This document shows positions 34,923 through 43,432 of a DNA stretch of 64,000 nucleotides, in pieces. A model generated the notes under the pieces. It did not search any database. It was given only the letters and a program-made list of their open reading frames with translations, and had not been told where the DNA came from. This stretch comes from Oidiodendron maius Zn. Its lineage: Eukaryota > Ascomycota > Leotiomycetes > Myxotrichaceae. The stretch covers positions 1,240,001 to 1,304,000 of the forward strand of contig KN832877.1 in assembly GCA_000827325.1 (NCBI GenBank), read 5' to 3'. Numbering within the stretch: position 1 is the stretch's first letter; each line of letters starts with the position of its first letter. A program made the position numbers and the translations under genes.

Positions 34923-35889
34923 TCAATGTAACTCGGGAAAAACCTCCTTAAATGCTTCACGACTAGTGTAGTTCTCCCACCACTTACGCAATTTTGGCCC
35001 AAACTTGAAATCGGGGACGGACCTCTTGATATTGTCCTCCAGCTTCGATAGATCGCCGATTTCCTTAGTTCCAACGTGTGCCATAGCATGTGCAAGCCAT
35101 GGCACTGCATGAAGGTCTGCATGTGTGACTTGTTCACCAGTCGCATATGGCAAGACAAGGAGCGTCTCCAGCCGATTCACCTCTGCAGCGAATCGGGCAT
35201 ATCCGGCGTGAGTCGCCTTGAAAAATGTATCGTGTTCAGCAGACGGCCCAGTGGTGTATATATGGTGCAGCGCACCATTCTCTATAGCTTTTGGCCCATA
35301 GAATGGATGGTCTGGGTATGTCAAATGGTTTTTTTCAAGGGCTTTTTGCCTGGCTGCAATGAAATCGCCATAACCTCCAGTCCGTTTGGCATTTAGCTCC
35401 TTAACATCTCGTGCCTGTAAAAGAATGAGATTTGTACCGACATCGTCGGAGTGCACCAAGGCAATGATTGCGTCCATATTAGCCTTTAGTTTAGGATCGC
35501 TAGGAGTGAGAGATGGCGTCTTAATCTCATCAAGGTAATTGAGAACATCTCGGCTATCAATGAGAGTCTTGTTAAGTGAGGGTACGACGAGAGATGGAAC
35601 TGTCCCCATGGGATTGATCTTGATGTATTCTGGATCAAAGTTTGCTGCCTCCACTAAAGCCGTTAACAGGTTGCCTTTTATGATTCCAAAGAGAACTTAC
35701 TCAAGTCAATTTCCTTAATCTCTACTTCATCTTTCTTATATCCCTTTTCTGCGAGTCCAAGCTTTGGTACATTTGCCCATTGCGACGCAAGTGACGAGTA
35801 GAGAACCGGCTATATTAGAGTTATATATACATTCATGTAGTGAGTTTTGGGGGGGGGGGGGGGGGGGGGTTGCAAACCTTTTGAGACAT
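34923..35889 (-). CDS. Glutathione S-transferase-like protein
   Basis: Predicted 283 residues from exons 35889-35878 (12 bases: MSQK), 35809-35701 and 35653-34923. The N-terminal half has a thioredoxin-like GST fold (PVLYSSLASQWANVPKLGLAEKGY, then INPMGTVPSLVV with the cis-Pro and an SRDVLNYLD loop standing in for the usual ES). The C-terminal half is helical, with THADLHAVPWLAH matching the N-capping region of GSTs. An internal insertion (about residues 90-160) makes it longer than typical GSTs. Probable glutathione conjugation or reduction; the substrate is unknown. Intron 1 holds a run of 21 C on the coding strand. Confidence 0.8.
35849..35869 (+). repeat. Poly-G run (21 G) inside a GST intron
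   Basis: Uninterrupted 21-base homopolymer, read as C on the coding strand, between the 12-base first exon and second exon of the GST-like gene. It places a G/C tract in a 68-base intron. Its length may be inaccurate in the assembly. Confidence 0.85.
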
Positions 35890-36357
35890 TGCAAACTGGA
35901 ATGGCTAAGGTTAGCTATTAAAATGTTTCTGGAGAAGTCAGAGGATTTTTATGTTCATACTGCAAAGTAAATTCAATGGAAGCTCTCATGGCTATCTTAT
36001 ATACCTTCATCGATGCTATGATGTTACCATGCTATGTTTCTGTGACTTTGATTACGGTAACCAGCTAAGCGATTTTAGGTCGGATTCCACATCACGACCT
36101 CGGCTTCGCCAGACATCACTCATTACGCCGATTATGCACGCATGATAAAGCCAAGCATTCATAATTTCAGAGGCGGAGAGTTTCTACCTTCTCGATATTG
36201 TCATCGCGGTAATGCAGCAGGCTGGTCTGGCCCGCAGCATCCCGGGCTAGAATCGCGGGATTTGTAACATACAATAGCACCGTTACCTCTGTAAGTTGAA
36301 GCAATACTGTACATGTAGTATATGTAGTACATGTTATCATACAATTTGATCGATTTA
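35890..36357. other. Intergenic, no gene seen
   Basis: Between two GST-fold genes on the same strand. It should hold the promoter of the GST-like gene. Confidence 0.5.
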
Positions 36358-37732
36358 CTATTTAACAGCTTCTATCTGCTTCCCTAATATCTCTGGTCTC
36401 GGTCCCAATGGAACAATGCCCTATGCATCTTAGTTTGATTACTCAAAAAGTTCATGAGGACTTACTTCTGGATTCAGAGTCGTGATACTTGAGAAGTAAT
36501 GTCTCTTAATATGCTCAAAATTTGTTGTCTGGCCAAATGCAGGTAAGTCCCAATAAAGGTGGCGCAACCACTTATGGATTGCGGGAAACCCAGATCGGAT
36601 AGTATCTAGATTCGTCTTGAAAAGCTGCTTCGCGTTCAGCAACTCTGTCGCTCTATGGAGCAGAGGGATACAACATACAGTGACATATACGACATCAAAT
36701 CGCACAATTGTTGGATAAAGACGTAAATCCACCTCTGTGAGTTCATTTCCAAGTATGTATGGACCCGTGGAGTTTGCAAGGAGGCTTTCAACTCGGTCCA
36801 GAGAGTCAAAAAGCTGCGTGACATTTTTTTCGTAGGCTGCTTGTGACCTGACGTAAGTTAGTACCGGAAACTGAACTGGAGGTTTATAATTTCCTTACTT
36901 TGCAATACCACATTTGCTACAGGGGTGTACTCTTAGCAATCTTCTGATGGGGTTCGAATAAATTTAACTTACTAGACGCCATTATTTATGTCATCCTAGA
37001 ATTGTCAGTCTCAGAAGACTAAGAGTGGTACAAGAGAGGTTACATATATCCACTGATTCATCTTGTCTATAGATGCGATCAAACTATTTGGGATAATATT
37101 GATGCTTCTATGGTCCTCATCAAGCAAGTCATTGAATTCAGTCGCAAACATTCGAATGATTTCACTAGACTCGTTACTGACGATGGTCTTCGTCTTCTTG
37201 TCCCATAGTACAGGAACTGAAAAACGCCCAGTATAATTGGGTTCAGCAAGGAGATAGAGATCCCGAATCGTTTCAACTCCATTAACTGGATCTGGGGTGA
37301 CATTTTCGCCACTTAGCTTCTCATCTGCTTTGGCGAATCTCCAACCTATACCCATGTCAGAGAGAAAAGAGGAGACTGAGAAGGACGAGACAGACCAATT
37401 CCACCTAAGTCCATGTACCAATGCACGGAGGTAAAGTCGATTATGCTCTGCAAGCCTTTCAAGTTTCTCATGATTAGAGTCCTATGCGCTGAACAAAAAA
37501 GGTTTAAGTCATGCGTTCAAAGGCACCGCTCAATAGACCACTAACCCCAGGGACAAGCGTAAGACACGTATAGATGATAACGTCCACTTTCGGGAGGAAA
37601 TGGCGATCCTGGTTTTGAGGAGATATGATTCCGGAATTGGGCCGCTGGCCGCTTGAACTCTCCTGTGGCGGCGTCAACGACCGAGTTGATGGACTCGGCG
37701 GCCGCGGTCTTCTTCGTTTCGGACATATTCAT
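36358..37732 (-). CDS. Xi-class GST / S-glutathionyl-hydroquinone reductase (Ecm4/Gto-like)
   Basis: Predicted 355-residue protein from seven exons: 37732-37546, 37488-37396, 37345-37044, 36995-36973, 36916-36899, 36847-36466 and 36420-36358. Exons 4 and 5 have only 23 and 18 bases. The catalytic motif is Cys-Pro-Trp-Ala, Cys at about residue 60; its Ala codon is made only by splicing intron 1. Later signatures are the INNGVYKCG turn, then LDRVESLLANSTGPYILGNE and the TEVDLRLYPTIVRFD helix. The enzyme uses glutathione to reduce glutathionyl-hydroquinones in the cytosol or mitochondria. Every junction keeps phase, giving good support for the micro-exons. Confidence 0.88.
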
Positions 37733-39130: not shown

Positions 39131-41302
39131 AAACCAGCCACGTATTAAGAAATAGGAACTCTTTTAGTGCAAAAACCTGTTCATTCCAGCTGCCCCACCT
39201 CCAGACACGTTAGGAAGGTAGGCAACGGCGAATAGCCACTAACACACCATGGAGCTATATATTAGCAAGATGTCACCAGCAAGATCCGGAAAGTGAGCCA
39301 AGCGATAGTAAACCTCTCGAATCTGCGACTATAAATTGACCTCTTTGACATAAAATATTTTATTCGGTTGAAGACCCTACCAGAGACTCTGGGCCACATG
39401 CCTCTCCTTCATATATATGGCAACTAGGAGAAGGGCTGTCATGAAGATCACTAATAATCAGAGAGAGAACCTAGGTGCTTACATTTCATGCGCTCCAAAA
39501 CAAATCCGCCTCTTGGATGAGACGGAGTATACTGCACAAATTTCCTAAATATATACAAAAAAGGGGGTTGATAAATATTGGACTATTGAAATCTAAGAAA
39601 CTATTCTGGAGATATGTAGTAAATAGTGGTAAAAACTAAGCAATATATATGGCAATAGGCCATAAGTAATATTTATAAGTGATATAGTAAAGTACCATCA
39701 AAGCCTGCTAATATGTTACGCTCTAGCATATAAGTAGCTCTCTTTAAAGGTATTAAAGACCGCTGCCAGAAGCAGTCTATTGTTATGGTACTTCAATTTA
39801 TAAGTGGATACTGTATATCCAAGAGATGCAGAGAATTGCTCTGACAACAACTAGTCTGTTAGCCTCTATAGACTTTAGGTAGCCCTCTTTAAATTTACAT
39901 AGGGTACTATGCGGAATACTTATATTTTGTACTACAGGAAGTCAATAGTCCTCTTTTAGGGGTATAGATTGGCATATTGCTAATGTGCACACACTGCACA
40001 CTGGAAGTGACTATCCCTTAGAGGCTTGATGACGCAACGTTGCATTCAACTTACGTATTGTGGCTTAGGATATAGTTGACCGTCGTCATGAGGAAATTGA
40101 CTGCTGTCACTAACTACATATGTACTCTCCCGTGGAATGCTGTTGATGTGCATGAACCACGGCCAAGAGCAACTAACGCACGTAGCCATACAGGGTATAA
40201 GAAGCCATCCAAACCTAATATGAACTACATTACAAACAATCAACTCGCGGTTGTCATTGTAGGTAAATAAATCTCTTAGGAGATACATTGGACCTGCTAC
40301 GGTAAGCAAGTCATAAGTCATAATAGTGAGCGATGTTATATTGAACCCCGCCATACGTATCAGGCGGGATACTAACTCCCTTACTTAGTTAGGAATCTGC
40401 AAACTTACAGTGTGAAGCGCGAGCAGTGAGTTAAAAAAAGAACAACAGGAGGGACAACCTTTCAGGCTGGATAAACACTGTGATCCACTCATTATGATGT
40501 TCCATCCTGATGCATGCATATGCATTATCTGTCACTTTTTTTTCTGCATGTGAGCCGAATCTAAGCAAATTAGAAAGCAGCACTGTAATCTAGATACAGC
40601 CAGCAAAGCAGTAGCTGAATACGAGGGCGGCAATTGTATGTAAAGGTTGCAATATTGTCCAAAAGCAACCACTGGTAGGATAGCATTAGCGGTGGTCAAG
40701 TGCCTGAAATGGGTTGGAAAGAGGGCCGAGACGGGCAGAGACGGCAGAAAGCCAGCCAACATGCAAGACGATATCCCAGTCTATTGATCAGCTGCAGCTC
40801 TGGACTCTGCATGTATTCGGCGACTTATTTGCTTAATCAGTGTTATCATTTCTAATCGTTCAACTAACAGTCACGGGAGAAGCTGCGTCCGAATACTTGC
40901 AGGACATACTCCAGCTAATGGGATCTCCGTGCTCCCTGAGGTTCATCCCTTTGCATCTTCCCTAGATAAAATTTAGCTACGGCCCGTGCATCCTGCCTAT
41001 TAATCCCTGCCAAGGTGATTCAGCTTGACCCTAAGTTTTGCTATCAAAGCGTTACTAGCTCTATGAAAGGTGACAATGGATGCAAGCTTTTCCCTTAGCC
41101 TCGGCATCTTTATATTTAGTTTGACGTTAGATTTTGTATACGCGCCGCTCTGGTAGTAAACGCACCTACTTATATTCTCACTTATCCCCCCGTGGCAGTC
41201 TCTACAGCCGCTCTTCTCTCTATAGCACATCTTAGCTACTCTTTCTTTGTTACTGGAACTTAACAGCTATAATAAAGCTCTCTTCAATTCACCACATCAG
41301 TC
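39131..41302. other. Gene-poor region upstream of the tandem-repeat precursor
   Basis: About 2.2 kb without a supported gene; 39500-40000 is AT-rich. A 76-codon minus-strand ORF at 41230-41000 starts MCYREKSGCRDCHGG and has four cysteines in its first 25 residues. It overlaps the likely promoter of the next gene and I cannot confirm it. Confidence 0.45.
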
Positions 41303-42261
41303 ATGAAGTTCAACCTCCTCCTCTTAGGAGTCTCCGTTACGCCTATCATCGCCTTTCCCTTGACCTTCAACTTAAAACGAGATGAGGTGTCTTCTGGTAA
41401 GACTTTAAAATACGCCCTCGTATTATTTAGAGTGAAATTTCCTTCCTACTAACTGGCCCAACCGCCCTAATAGGAGCATGGGGTCCGGACTTCCCAACTA
41501 TAGTTGAGAGACCAGAATACAATGGAGGAAAAGTGAAACGCAATGCAGCTACATCTGCTGACCCAAACGCTGCACTCCCGGTACAGAGGCCCACTTACTA
41601 CGGGGGAAAGTTTAAACGAAATGAAGATATGGCCGCTCGTGCGGATATTGAGCTCCCAGTCGAGAGGCCGGATTGGATAGGAGGAAAACTTAGACGTAAT
41701 GCAGATACGGCCACCGTGACGGATATCGCGCACCTGATTGAGCGACCTGAATATGCAGGGGGGAAAATTAAACGAAGCGATAGCACCGCCGCTGAAGCTC
41801 ATGTCGACTTGCCAGTTGAGAGACCAGATTACTTCGGTGGAAAGGTTAGACGCGGCGAAGATACAGATGCTACCGAGCACCTGGCTAAGAGGCCGGGTTA
41901 TGTCGGCGGGAAGGCTAAACGCAATGACGATACAAGTGCCACTGAGTACGTGGTTGAGAGACCAAATTATAGCGGCGGGAAGGTTAAACGCAATGACGAT
42001 GAAACTGCCACTGAGTACGTGGTTGAGAGACCAACTTATGCTGGCGGAAAGGTTAGACGTGGCGGGGACACAGATGCTACTGAGCACCTAGCTAAGAGGT
42101 TAGGTCGCGTTGGAGGAAAGGACGCACGAAATAACGATGCAACTGCCATTGAGTACGTAGTTGAGAGGCCGTCGTATGACGGCGGAAAGGCTAAGCGGAA
42201 TGACGATGCAACTGCCGTTGAGTATATCGTCGAGCGGCCGGAATACTATGGTGGAAAGTAG
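41303..42261 (+). CDS. Secreted Kex2-processed tandem-repeat precursor (candidate RiPP/KEP)
   Basis: Predicted 293 residues from exons 41303-41396 and 41474-42261 (77-base intron, GTAAGA to TAG). A signal peptide (MKFNLLLLGVSVTPIIA) is followed by a first Lys-Arg at 25-26, then eleven units. Nine junctions between units carry KR or RR at 53-54, 79-80, 105-106, 131-132, 157-158, 180-181, 203-204, 226-227 and 272-273. Most units end in R-P-x-(Y/W)-x-G-G-K before the dibasic pair; the x next to the aromatic residue varies (N, Y, I, A, F, V, S, A, D, Y). Spacers are acidic and Ala/Thr-rich. The design fits Kex2-processed repeat proteins, which include precursors of fungal cyclic peptides (ustiloxin/phomopsin type). 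Which residues form the product is unknown. No UstY-like, tyrosinase or peptidase gene is recognisable beside it. Confidence 0.8.
41500..42258 (+). repeat. Coding tandem repeat, 11 units, 78 then 69 bases
   Basis: Units 2-5 (residues 55-158) each span 26 residues (78 bases). Units 6-10 (residues 159-273) each span 23 residues (69 bases). The last unit (274-293) ends at the stop after GGK. Units 6-8 and 9-11 align as a duplicated block: units 6 and 9 share DTDATEHLAKR and units 7-8 resemble 10-11 (ATEYVVERP, AVEYIVERP). Unit 9 is degenerate in its core and in its right-hand dibasic site. Confidence 0.9.
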
Positions 42262-43432
42262 GATTTGAGGGATGCGATTCTAAAATAAGTATACAAATGC
42301 AGTGTGCGACATGAACTGTGACTGGTTTATGTAATTTTACTATACAGCGTATGAATATGATGTCTGGTTAATTCGTTATGGGGAAACTGTCACAGTTTAA
42401 ATTTCAGCAAGAAATTTAAATTAGGGGGGCACAGACCATTTTCTCTATGCAGACAATGTACAATAGGTCATGTCCAGCTGCCAAGGTATCCCGGGCTAGG
42501 GAAGCAGATATTCTAATTTACGCACCATCTAAACCGGAAGGCCATACTAGAGTAATCAGGACAGAGACGTGTTAGTCTTAAACTGCCTGAATTAATCATC
42601 GTCAGCAAATTACAGGCCTGTGACTCACCTTCTTAGCCCGCAAGAAACCTGGATGCAATCCTTTCATGACGTAAATTAGCTTGACAAGATGATCTCCTTG
42701 TATAGTTGTATGTCCAATATGGGGATAGTATTGTAGATATGAATAGGATGAGAGACAAAGTGTCTTTATGAACTCCAAGGCAGTCATGATCTTGCATGGT
42801 CTGATGTTACGTGTTAGGGATAGAGAGACGGCAATATTTCCACATCCCGAATAATTTGCTTATCACTTCTGGAGCTGTCACCTTTTCTACATCTTTTTGG
42901 GACTACCATATGATTGATAACATTTTCTCTGAAATACCTTGACCTTATTACTTTTTATCATGTAACGGACCAACTCGTGATGGTATATACAAAGGCCATC
43001 TTTGGCACGTTCTTCTAGTAATTTCTTACAGTGTCATCCACAATAAGATTATTGGAGCGGCAGGGAGGAGTGGTTGCAAATTAATACTCCCTTCCAGCCC
43101 ACAACTGATGCTGAAGTGCATTACTTTAGAATTTATTCGCCTTTATCCACGACGCAAGAGGACAGGGGAGATGATCCTAGCATAGAGCTTGATGATATCG
43201 CCCTGCATGATGACATTTTCAATTATGGAGAAATAGGTGCCTTTCTCTGGCCTATTGATTGGGTGGCCGAATCTGGTTACAGATATTTTACTGAATTTGT
43301 TTTACTCTCTAGATATATGAATACGACTATGACCATTTCACAATAAAACAGTTGCCAATATCCTGATGTGCCTAGAATTTGTTTCAGAGTCGCAAACGGT
43401 TATAGTCTGGGATACTACGAACTGCACATTGT
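42262..43432. other. Intergenic 1.2 kb, no gene established
   Basis: Two short ORFs were inspected: minus 42787-42602 and plus 43074-43346 (starting from TTG; contains FQPTTDAEVHYF). The second has a protein-like composition but no upstream start, no recognised domain and no partner exon that I can join. I do not annotate either. Confidence 0.4.

Follow-up and report, generated by a model that had tools for sequence, protein, structure and literature searches.

The repeat gene at positions 41303-42261 (forward strand) of the window, i.e., the whole analysed stretch of 64,000 nucleotides from contig KN832877.1 of Oidiodendron maius Zn, raises the question of whether a single fungal precursor furnishes a family of small secreted peptides, and whether such peptides would be linear or cyclic. 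The gene is of the Kex2-processed repeat protein (KEP) type, contains two exons and codes for 293 residues. The coordinates given in an earlier note on this DNA, with their ATG and stop codon, are retained in our model, but the 959 bases are not a single open frame, because a 77-nt intron interrupts them. The parts of the gene are as follows:

41303..41396, forward strand: exon 1, with the signal-peptide-like N-terminus MKFNLLLLGVSVTPIIA followed by FPL, and the first KR (residues 25-26)
41397..41473, forward strand: predicted intron of 77 nt, fungal-type, with the sequence signals GTAAGA...TACTAAC...TAG
41474..42261, forward strand: exon 2, carrying all eleven units

Residues 3-17 contain a hydrophobic stretch, and hydropathy places a plausible cleavage site between A17 and F18. 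With this support the N-terminus looks like a signal peptide, and the protein is probably secreted. The early Lys-Arg pair that the note had reported is present at residues 25-26. The 293-residue precursor contains no Cys residue and matches no Pfam family. A sigma-70 promoter scan is not applicable to fungi.

Eleven units were counted, in agreement with the earlier note, mostly of 23-26 residues each. The unit ending RPxYxGGK given in that note is exact in nine of the eleven, the exceptions being unit 3 (RPDWIGGK) and the degenerate unit 9. The dibasic ends are likewise present, but GGK does not directly precede KR or RR: a single residue (V, F, L, I or A) is interposed between GGK and the [KR]R pair in units 1-8 and 10, and in unit 11 the stop codon directly follows GGK. 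Nine of the ten internal unit ends carry the [KR]R pair, and units 6 and 9 contain an additional internal KR. Ten units possess the aromatic residue (Tyr in nine, Trp in one), the remaining one having Arg. The first four steps between units measure 78 nt and the following six 69 nt, and a higher-order repeat of 207 nt is evident in the array. The individual units are:

41503..41541, forward strand: unit 1, core region VERPEYNGGKVKR
41581..41619, forward strand: unit 2, core region VQRPTYYGGKFKR
41659..41697, forward strand: unit 3, core region VERPDWIGGKLRR, Tyr replaced by Trp
41737..41775, forward strand: unit 4, core region IERPEYAGGKIKR
41815..41853, forward strand: unit 5, core region VERPDYFGGKVRR
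41884..41922, forward strand: unit 6, core region AKRPGYVGGKAKR, with an additional internal KR preceding Pro
41953..41991, forward strand: unit 7, core region VERPNYSGGKVKR
42022..42060, forward strand: unit 8, core region VERPTYAGGKVRR
42091..42129, forward strand: unit 9, AKRLGRVGGKDAR, degenerate (without the P, the Tyr and the terminal dibasic pair)
42160..42198, forward strand: unit 10, core region VERPSYDGGKAKR
42229..42261, forward strand: unit 11, core region VERPEYYGGK-stop

Within 41854-42129, a variant spacer, GxDTDATEHLAKR, is common to units 6 and 9, the latter of which is decaying.

The motif and its repetition exceed what chance provides. A degenerate DNA motif for RPxYxGGK occurs nine times in the window, always within the precursor gene, and in none of 100 dinucleotide shuffles. 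In the whole 45.9-Mb genome it is found 12 times, versus none for the reversed pattern; these comprise the nine of the precursor gene, one in a decayed duplicate on contig C5 and two SPxYxGGK matches in short frames (53 and 39 residues). The looser pattern YxGGKx[KR]R gives 16 matches genome-wide, versus seven for its reverse, with eight in the precursor gene and one in the C5 relic. As for the other seven, L043, L044, L045 and L049 are single motifs in unrelated frames, L042 and L048 (C26, codes YSGGKAKR) have no motif-bearing frame of 30 residues, and the last is located on C16. A repeat detector of our own, which seeks similar 10-residue stretches preceding dibasic sites with a threshold of three units, was run on the 685 window ORFs of at least 45 residues and flags only that of the precursor; it flags none of 13,700 shuffled ORFs. 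Shuffling of the exon-2 protein itself reaches three units in two of 2000 trials, compared to a score of nine for the real protein.

The earlier note had described a fixed frame around freely varying tyrosine-flanking residues, and the between-unit substitution rates bear this out. Among the ten units other than the degenerate unit 9, the nine frame codons show a dN of 0.06 and a dS of 1.81, and the two codons flanking the aromatic residue a dN of 1.67 and a dS of 1.56. Inclusion of unit 9 changes these values to 0.12 and 1.70 for the frame and to 1.62 and 1.42 for the core. In the frame dN is thus far below dS, and in the core the two are about equal. Strong purifying selection acts on the frame, which is old (dN/dS of about 0.03), and the core is free to change.

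These rates bear on whether the repeats are cut at all. A repeat-containing secreted protein could work intact, in the wall or as an effector, its dibasic sites being incidental; charged, Cys-free tandem repeats do occur in other secreted fungal proteins, and unit 9 has lost its dibasic end. We nevertheless regard this as quite unlikely, since the dibasic end is retained in nine of ten cases, with only K/R exchange, at a distance where synonymous sites are near saturation.

Whether the core residues are not only free but selected to differ was assessed by Fisher's test of core nonsynonymous change versus all synonymous change, and the evidence for positive selection is suggestive only. For all pairs among units 7, 8, 10 and 11, which are not independent of one another, p is 0.003; for the register pairs 5/8, 6/9 and 7/10 it is 0.33, for 5/8 and 7/10 0.016, and for 7/10 and 8/11 0.017. 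In units 7, 8, 10 and 11 (41923-42258) synonymous divergence is also greater in the core half (0.64) than in the spacer (0.17), a gap matched by 52 of 20,000 column permutations; the corresponding numbers are 677 when unit 6 is added, 1431 with units 6 and 9, and 503 for units 7, 8 and 10 alone. The unit sets in both the selection and the divergence tests were picked after inspection of the data. The synonymous gap between the two halves points to homogenisation of the spacers as well.

A more far-reaching interpretation builds on these features. On this view the gene would define a peptide family whose sequence class is new: a fixed ERP-x-aromatic-x-GGK frame would present two hypervariable residues that selection keeps different from unit to unit, neighbouring spacers being homogenised and core halves keeping their old divergence; the resulting mixture would serve as an extracellular code specific to the species or strain, or an oxidase would crosslink it in trans. 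We consider this unlikely. If core diversity is indeed selected, fungi would offer an example of one gene whose secreted product is a deliberately varied peptide mixture.

The decayed duplicate provides a further comparison. The segment concerned is:

39143..42689, no strand assigned: outer boundaries of the duplicated segment; the copy lies on C5 at 338005-339697, on the opposite strand

The matching blocks on the window side are 39143-39195, 39687-40884, 41475-41612 and 42497-42689, and 1243 of 1536 aligned bases are identical (about 81% ungapped, 19% different). Exon 1, the intron and units 3-11 all lack a match in the C5 copy, which is therefore a relic. The unmatched stretch upstream of the units stops almost exactly where exon 2 starts. 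In the two units that remain, 5 of 54 bases differ from the window copy in the frame codons, 6 of 12 in the core and 13 of 57 elsewhere; the core change lies above the overall rate (binomial p of 0.015, on very few sites). The same pattern holds between the units of the gene itself, an indication that both copies once functioned. The relic shows no bias of the RIP type (86 C>T plus G>A changes, 95 in the reverse direction). An ORF at 40049-40384 (minus strand) was considered as a conserved coding neighbour and rejected, as its match extends over every frame at the DNA level and stop codons occur in the copy on C5.

The relic, together with the degenerate unit 9, might indicate that the locus as a whole is decaying or non-functional, as might the fact that homologues were not found in two protein searches. 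The open frame and clean intron, and the between-unit dN/dS of the frame, speak against this, and we consider it highly improbable. The searches, with the whole precursor or with residues 15-125 of the exon-2 frame, returned no homologue at E 0.1 or E 1 among 5.8 billion predicted proteins. As a control, the same database was searched with a fragment of the YVC1 channel encoded in the window, for which it contains 778 relatives; among the 120 matches listed, the best is 97% identical, and the best named ones are from Botrytis cinerea (73%) and Claussenomyces (70%). Both genera belong to the Leotiomycetes, so that by this one comparison the host would be a fungus, probably of that class. Fungal proteins are therefore covered by the database, in which small repeat genes are perhaps unpredicted. 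A protein search of the genome itself detected the C5 relic as the only relative, besides the precursor's own two exon matches.

A literature comparison gave a similar outcome. Among titles, abstract beginnings and main-text passages of the KEP literature, no precursor with RPxYxGGK or ERPx(Y/W)xGGK was found, and the motif does not occur in the passages considered of PMC6339444, PMC7329392, PMC12048977, PMC7099791, PMC9769878 and PMC9233826. Searches for YGGK together with Kex2 and repeat, and for two or more of the pentamers YNGGK, YAGGK, YFGGK, YSGGK, YDGGK and YYGGK, likewise gave no literature match. The motifs named in the main-text Results of PMC6339444 (EDYXI, DADAATXYV[A/V]D, YVW[G/A][G/S], SPPHKT, QKLKVD and XSDW) do not include ERPx(Y/W)xGGKx[KR]R. 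The "new peptide class" proposed in the earlier note is nonetheless too strong a term: orphan KEPs are common, 2560 of 7878 surveyed KEPs having no homologue according to a passage of PMC7329392, so that an orphan of this kind is ordinary. Fungal KEPs are described in part of PMC9769878 as numerous and largely of unknown function. Judged from its sequence, the precursor is an orphan gene for predicted secreted repeat peptides, with an architecture known in fungi and a signature for which no match was found.

The main text of PMC7329392 defines KEPs by three or more tandem repeats, each 8-100 residues long, that lie between KR, RR, KK or RK sites. Like the KEPs in the sections considered of PMC6339444 and PMC7329392, the precursor has more than the minimum of three tandem units delimited by KR or RR, namely eleven, with [KR]R at nine of ten internal ends; a signal peptide, also typical of KEPs, is predicted here by hydropathy. 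The genome search also gave one P_proprotein (PF01483) match above the cut-off, on C12, as would be expected of a Kex2 protease. The gene anatomy, the pattern of selection and this genomic match thus lend good support to the earlier proposal of a Kex2-type precursor that yields several related peptides in parallel. We consider it rather probable that the gene is a KEP giving linear, secreted peptides with variable cores, for signalling or interaction.

The precursor protein would enter the secretory pathway, Kex2 would cut after most KR and RR sites, and a Kex1-type carboxypeptidase would trim the basic ends. In this manner one precursor may release some ten core-bearing peptides at once, each of 19-31 residues, with the shared C-terminal signature [VIA][EQK]RPx(Y/W)xGGK-x. 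If a KR that precedes Pro is taken to resist Kex2, the predicted digest consists of twelve fragments. Ten of these carry a core, and in one of the ten, units 9 and 10 remain joined. The fixed frame may be the part read by the processing enzyme or by a receptor, while the residues on either side of the aromatic, whether free or kept different by selection, would create a small secreted mixture of variants that is tolerated or favoured. The clear separation of conserved frame and free core within one gene means that the part carrying the information can be sought with a few synthetic peptides. The peptides are most likely linear, as the contig has no UstYa gene, and would act extracellularly as signals or upon neighbours. 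Against this reading, the gene may be a lineage-specific one on its way out, given the decay of unit 9 and the relic on C5.

Ascomycete alpha-pheromone precursors share the same architecture, with a signal peptide followed by Kex2-cut tandem units at KR sites, and the gene could accordingly be taken for a mating pheromone precursor of the alpha-factor type. Unlike those precursors, it contains neither a pheromone core (no two-Cys and no PYGxPxG core) nor any Cys, and the repeated XA/XP steps of Ste13 processing are absent. After KR the units begin with DE, NA, NE, NA, SD, GE, ND, ND, GG and ND; two thus start with XA, in neither case as the first step of a longer run. A pheromone role is in our view very unlikely. 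The genome was also searched for a canonical pheromone gene elsewhere; one pattern gave 0 matches and another 2, the latter versus 3 for the reversed pattern, so that these searches do not point to another gene in that role.

The remaining question is whether the peptides are cyclic, as the earlier note had suggested by comparison with dikaritins and epichloecyclins. In such a RiPP the aromatic residue would be crosslinked by a UstYa-type oxidase, here one encoded elsewhere in the genome. A six-frame, exon-by-exon profile search for UstYa (PF11807), in which the counts are lower bounds, gave 70 exon matches on 18 contigs. None of these is on the contig of the precursor (C8, 1.95 Mb), either in the vicinity of the gene or beyond, so that the suggestion finds no support. 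The UstYa family is expanded in this genome, several of the matches being grouped (C1, C11, C14, C15 and C17).

Like the dikaritins (ustiloxin, phomopsin, asperipin) and the epichloecyclins, the window gene encodes a multi-unit, probably secreted precursor with a conserved aromatic residue in the unit, and its imperfect repeats would yield several variants, as described for the epichloecyclin precursor GigA in a passage of PMC9233826. The aromatic near the unit end, the acidic spacer and the dibasic ends also recall a TYGLNF-repeat ORF on C11, and the 70 UstYa exon matches could act in trans. In the portion of PMC7329392 that treats this point, Tyr occurs in 65.6% of the repeats associated with UstYa genes versus 38.2% of those without; an aromatic residue in ten of eleven units, Tyr in nine, is more typical of UstYa-associated KEPs and counts against linearity. 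Unlike dikaritins and epichloecyclins, however, the gene has no UstYa/DUF3328 match on its contig, no YxIx core and no tailoring cluster among the scanned neighbours. The same portion puts the share of KEPs with a neighbouring DUF3328 gene at 22%, and the mean distance at 3.09 genes. Furthermore, Tyr is not found in every core (Tyr in nine units, Trp in one and Arg in one), and the Trp of unit 3 means that an ether through the Tyr hydroxyl is not general. On balance we hold the cyclic alternative to be improbable, and retain linear peptides as the preferred reading.

The neighbourhood was assessed in 39 of the 150 window ORFs listed, none of which matches a UstYa, tyrosinase, P450, methyltransferase or peptidase family. 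Nine of the 39 match no family, and the remainder are mostly ordinary genes (transporters, the YVC1 channel, a P5A-ATPase, phospholipase D, a SNARE, Sec7, an acyltransferase, a glycosidase-type protein, an SDR, GSTs and others). The neighbouring SDR and GST genes could in principle act as tailoring enzymes, which would speak against the linear reading. Glutathione S-transferase-type exon pieces, probably of two genes, lie at 34926-37481 (minus strand).

The repeat detector was also applied to five control regions with UstYa genes (C15, L033 and L034; C11, L035; C1, L039 and L041; C17, L040), where it gave one clear candidate (L035) and one uncertain one (L039). In the other three regions and in eight short loci (L001-L008) there was no candidate, the pieces being short and spliced genes missable by this method. 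The control is partial: it shows that the detector can work beside UstYa genes, and not that every UstYa group is accompanied by a precursor. The absence of a candidate from three of the five regions favours the cyclic alternative to some extent, since a precursor and UstYa are then not necessarily adjacent by this method. The clear candidate, L035:2-262 (C11, about 545.5-545.8 kb), is an ORF of five similar TYGLNFDKR units with a 42-nt period, cut by the end of the stretch and about 2.5 kb from UstYa exons; it is probably a dikaritin-type precursor. Like the window gene, it has an acidic spacer and a Tyr-bearing core directly before KR. Its cores are near-identical (TYGLNF/AYGLNF) and its units of 42 nt lie near UstYa, whereas the window gene has variable cores and longer units, and no UstYa partner was found for it on its contig. 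At L039:5688-6002 (C1, about 6598.2-6598.5 kb, near the contig end), nearly exact 63-nt repeats with RR sites are open in three frames, the strand being uncertain (the minus frame reads NVDSVSAAEWDGGGDFAPDRR), and lie within about 1 kb of UstYa exons; this is possibly a second precursor.
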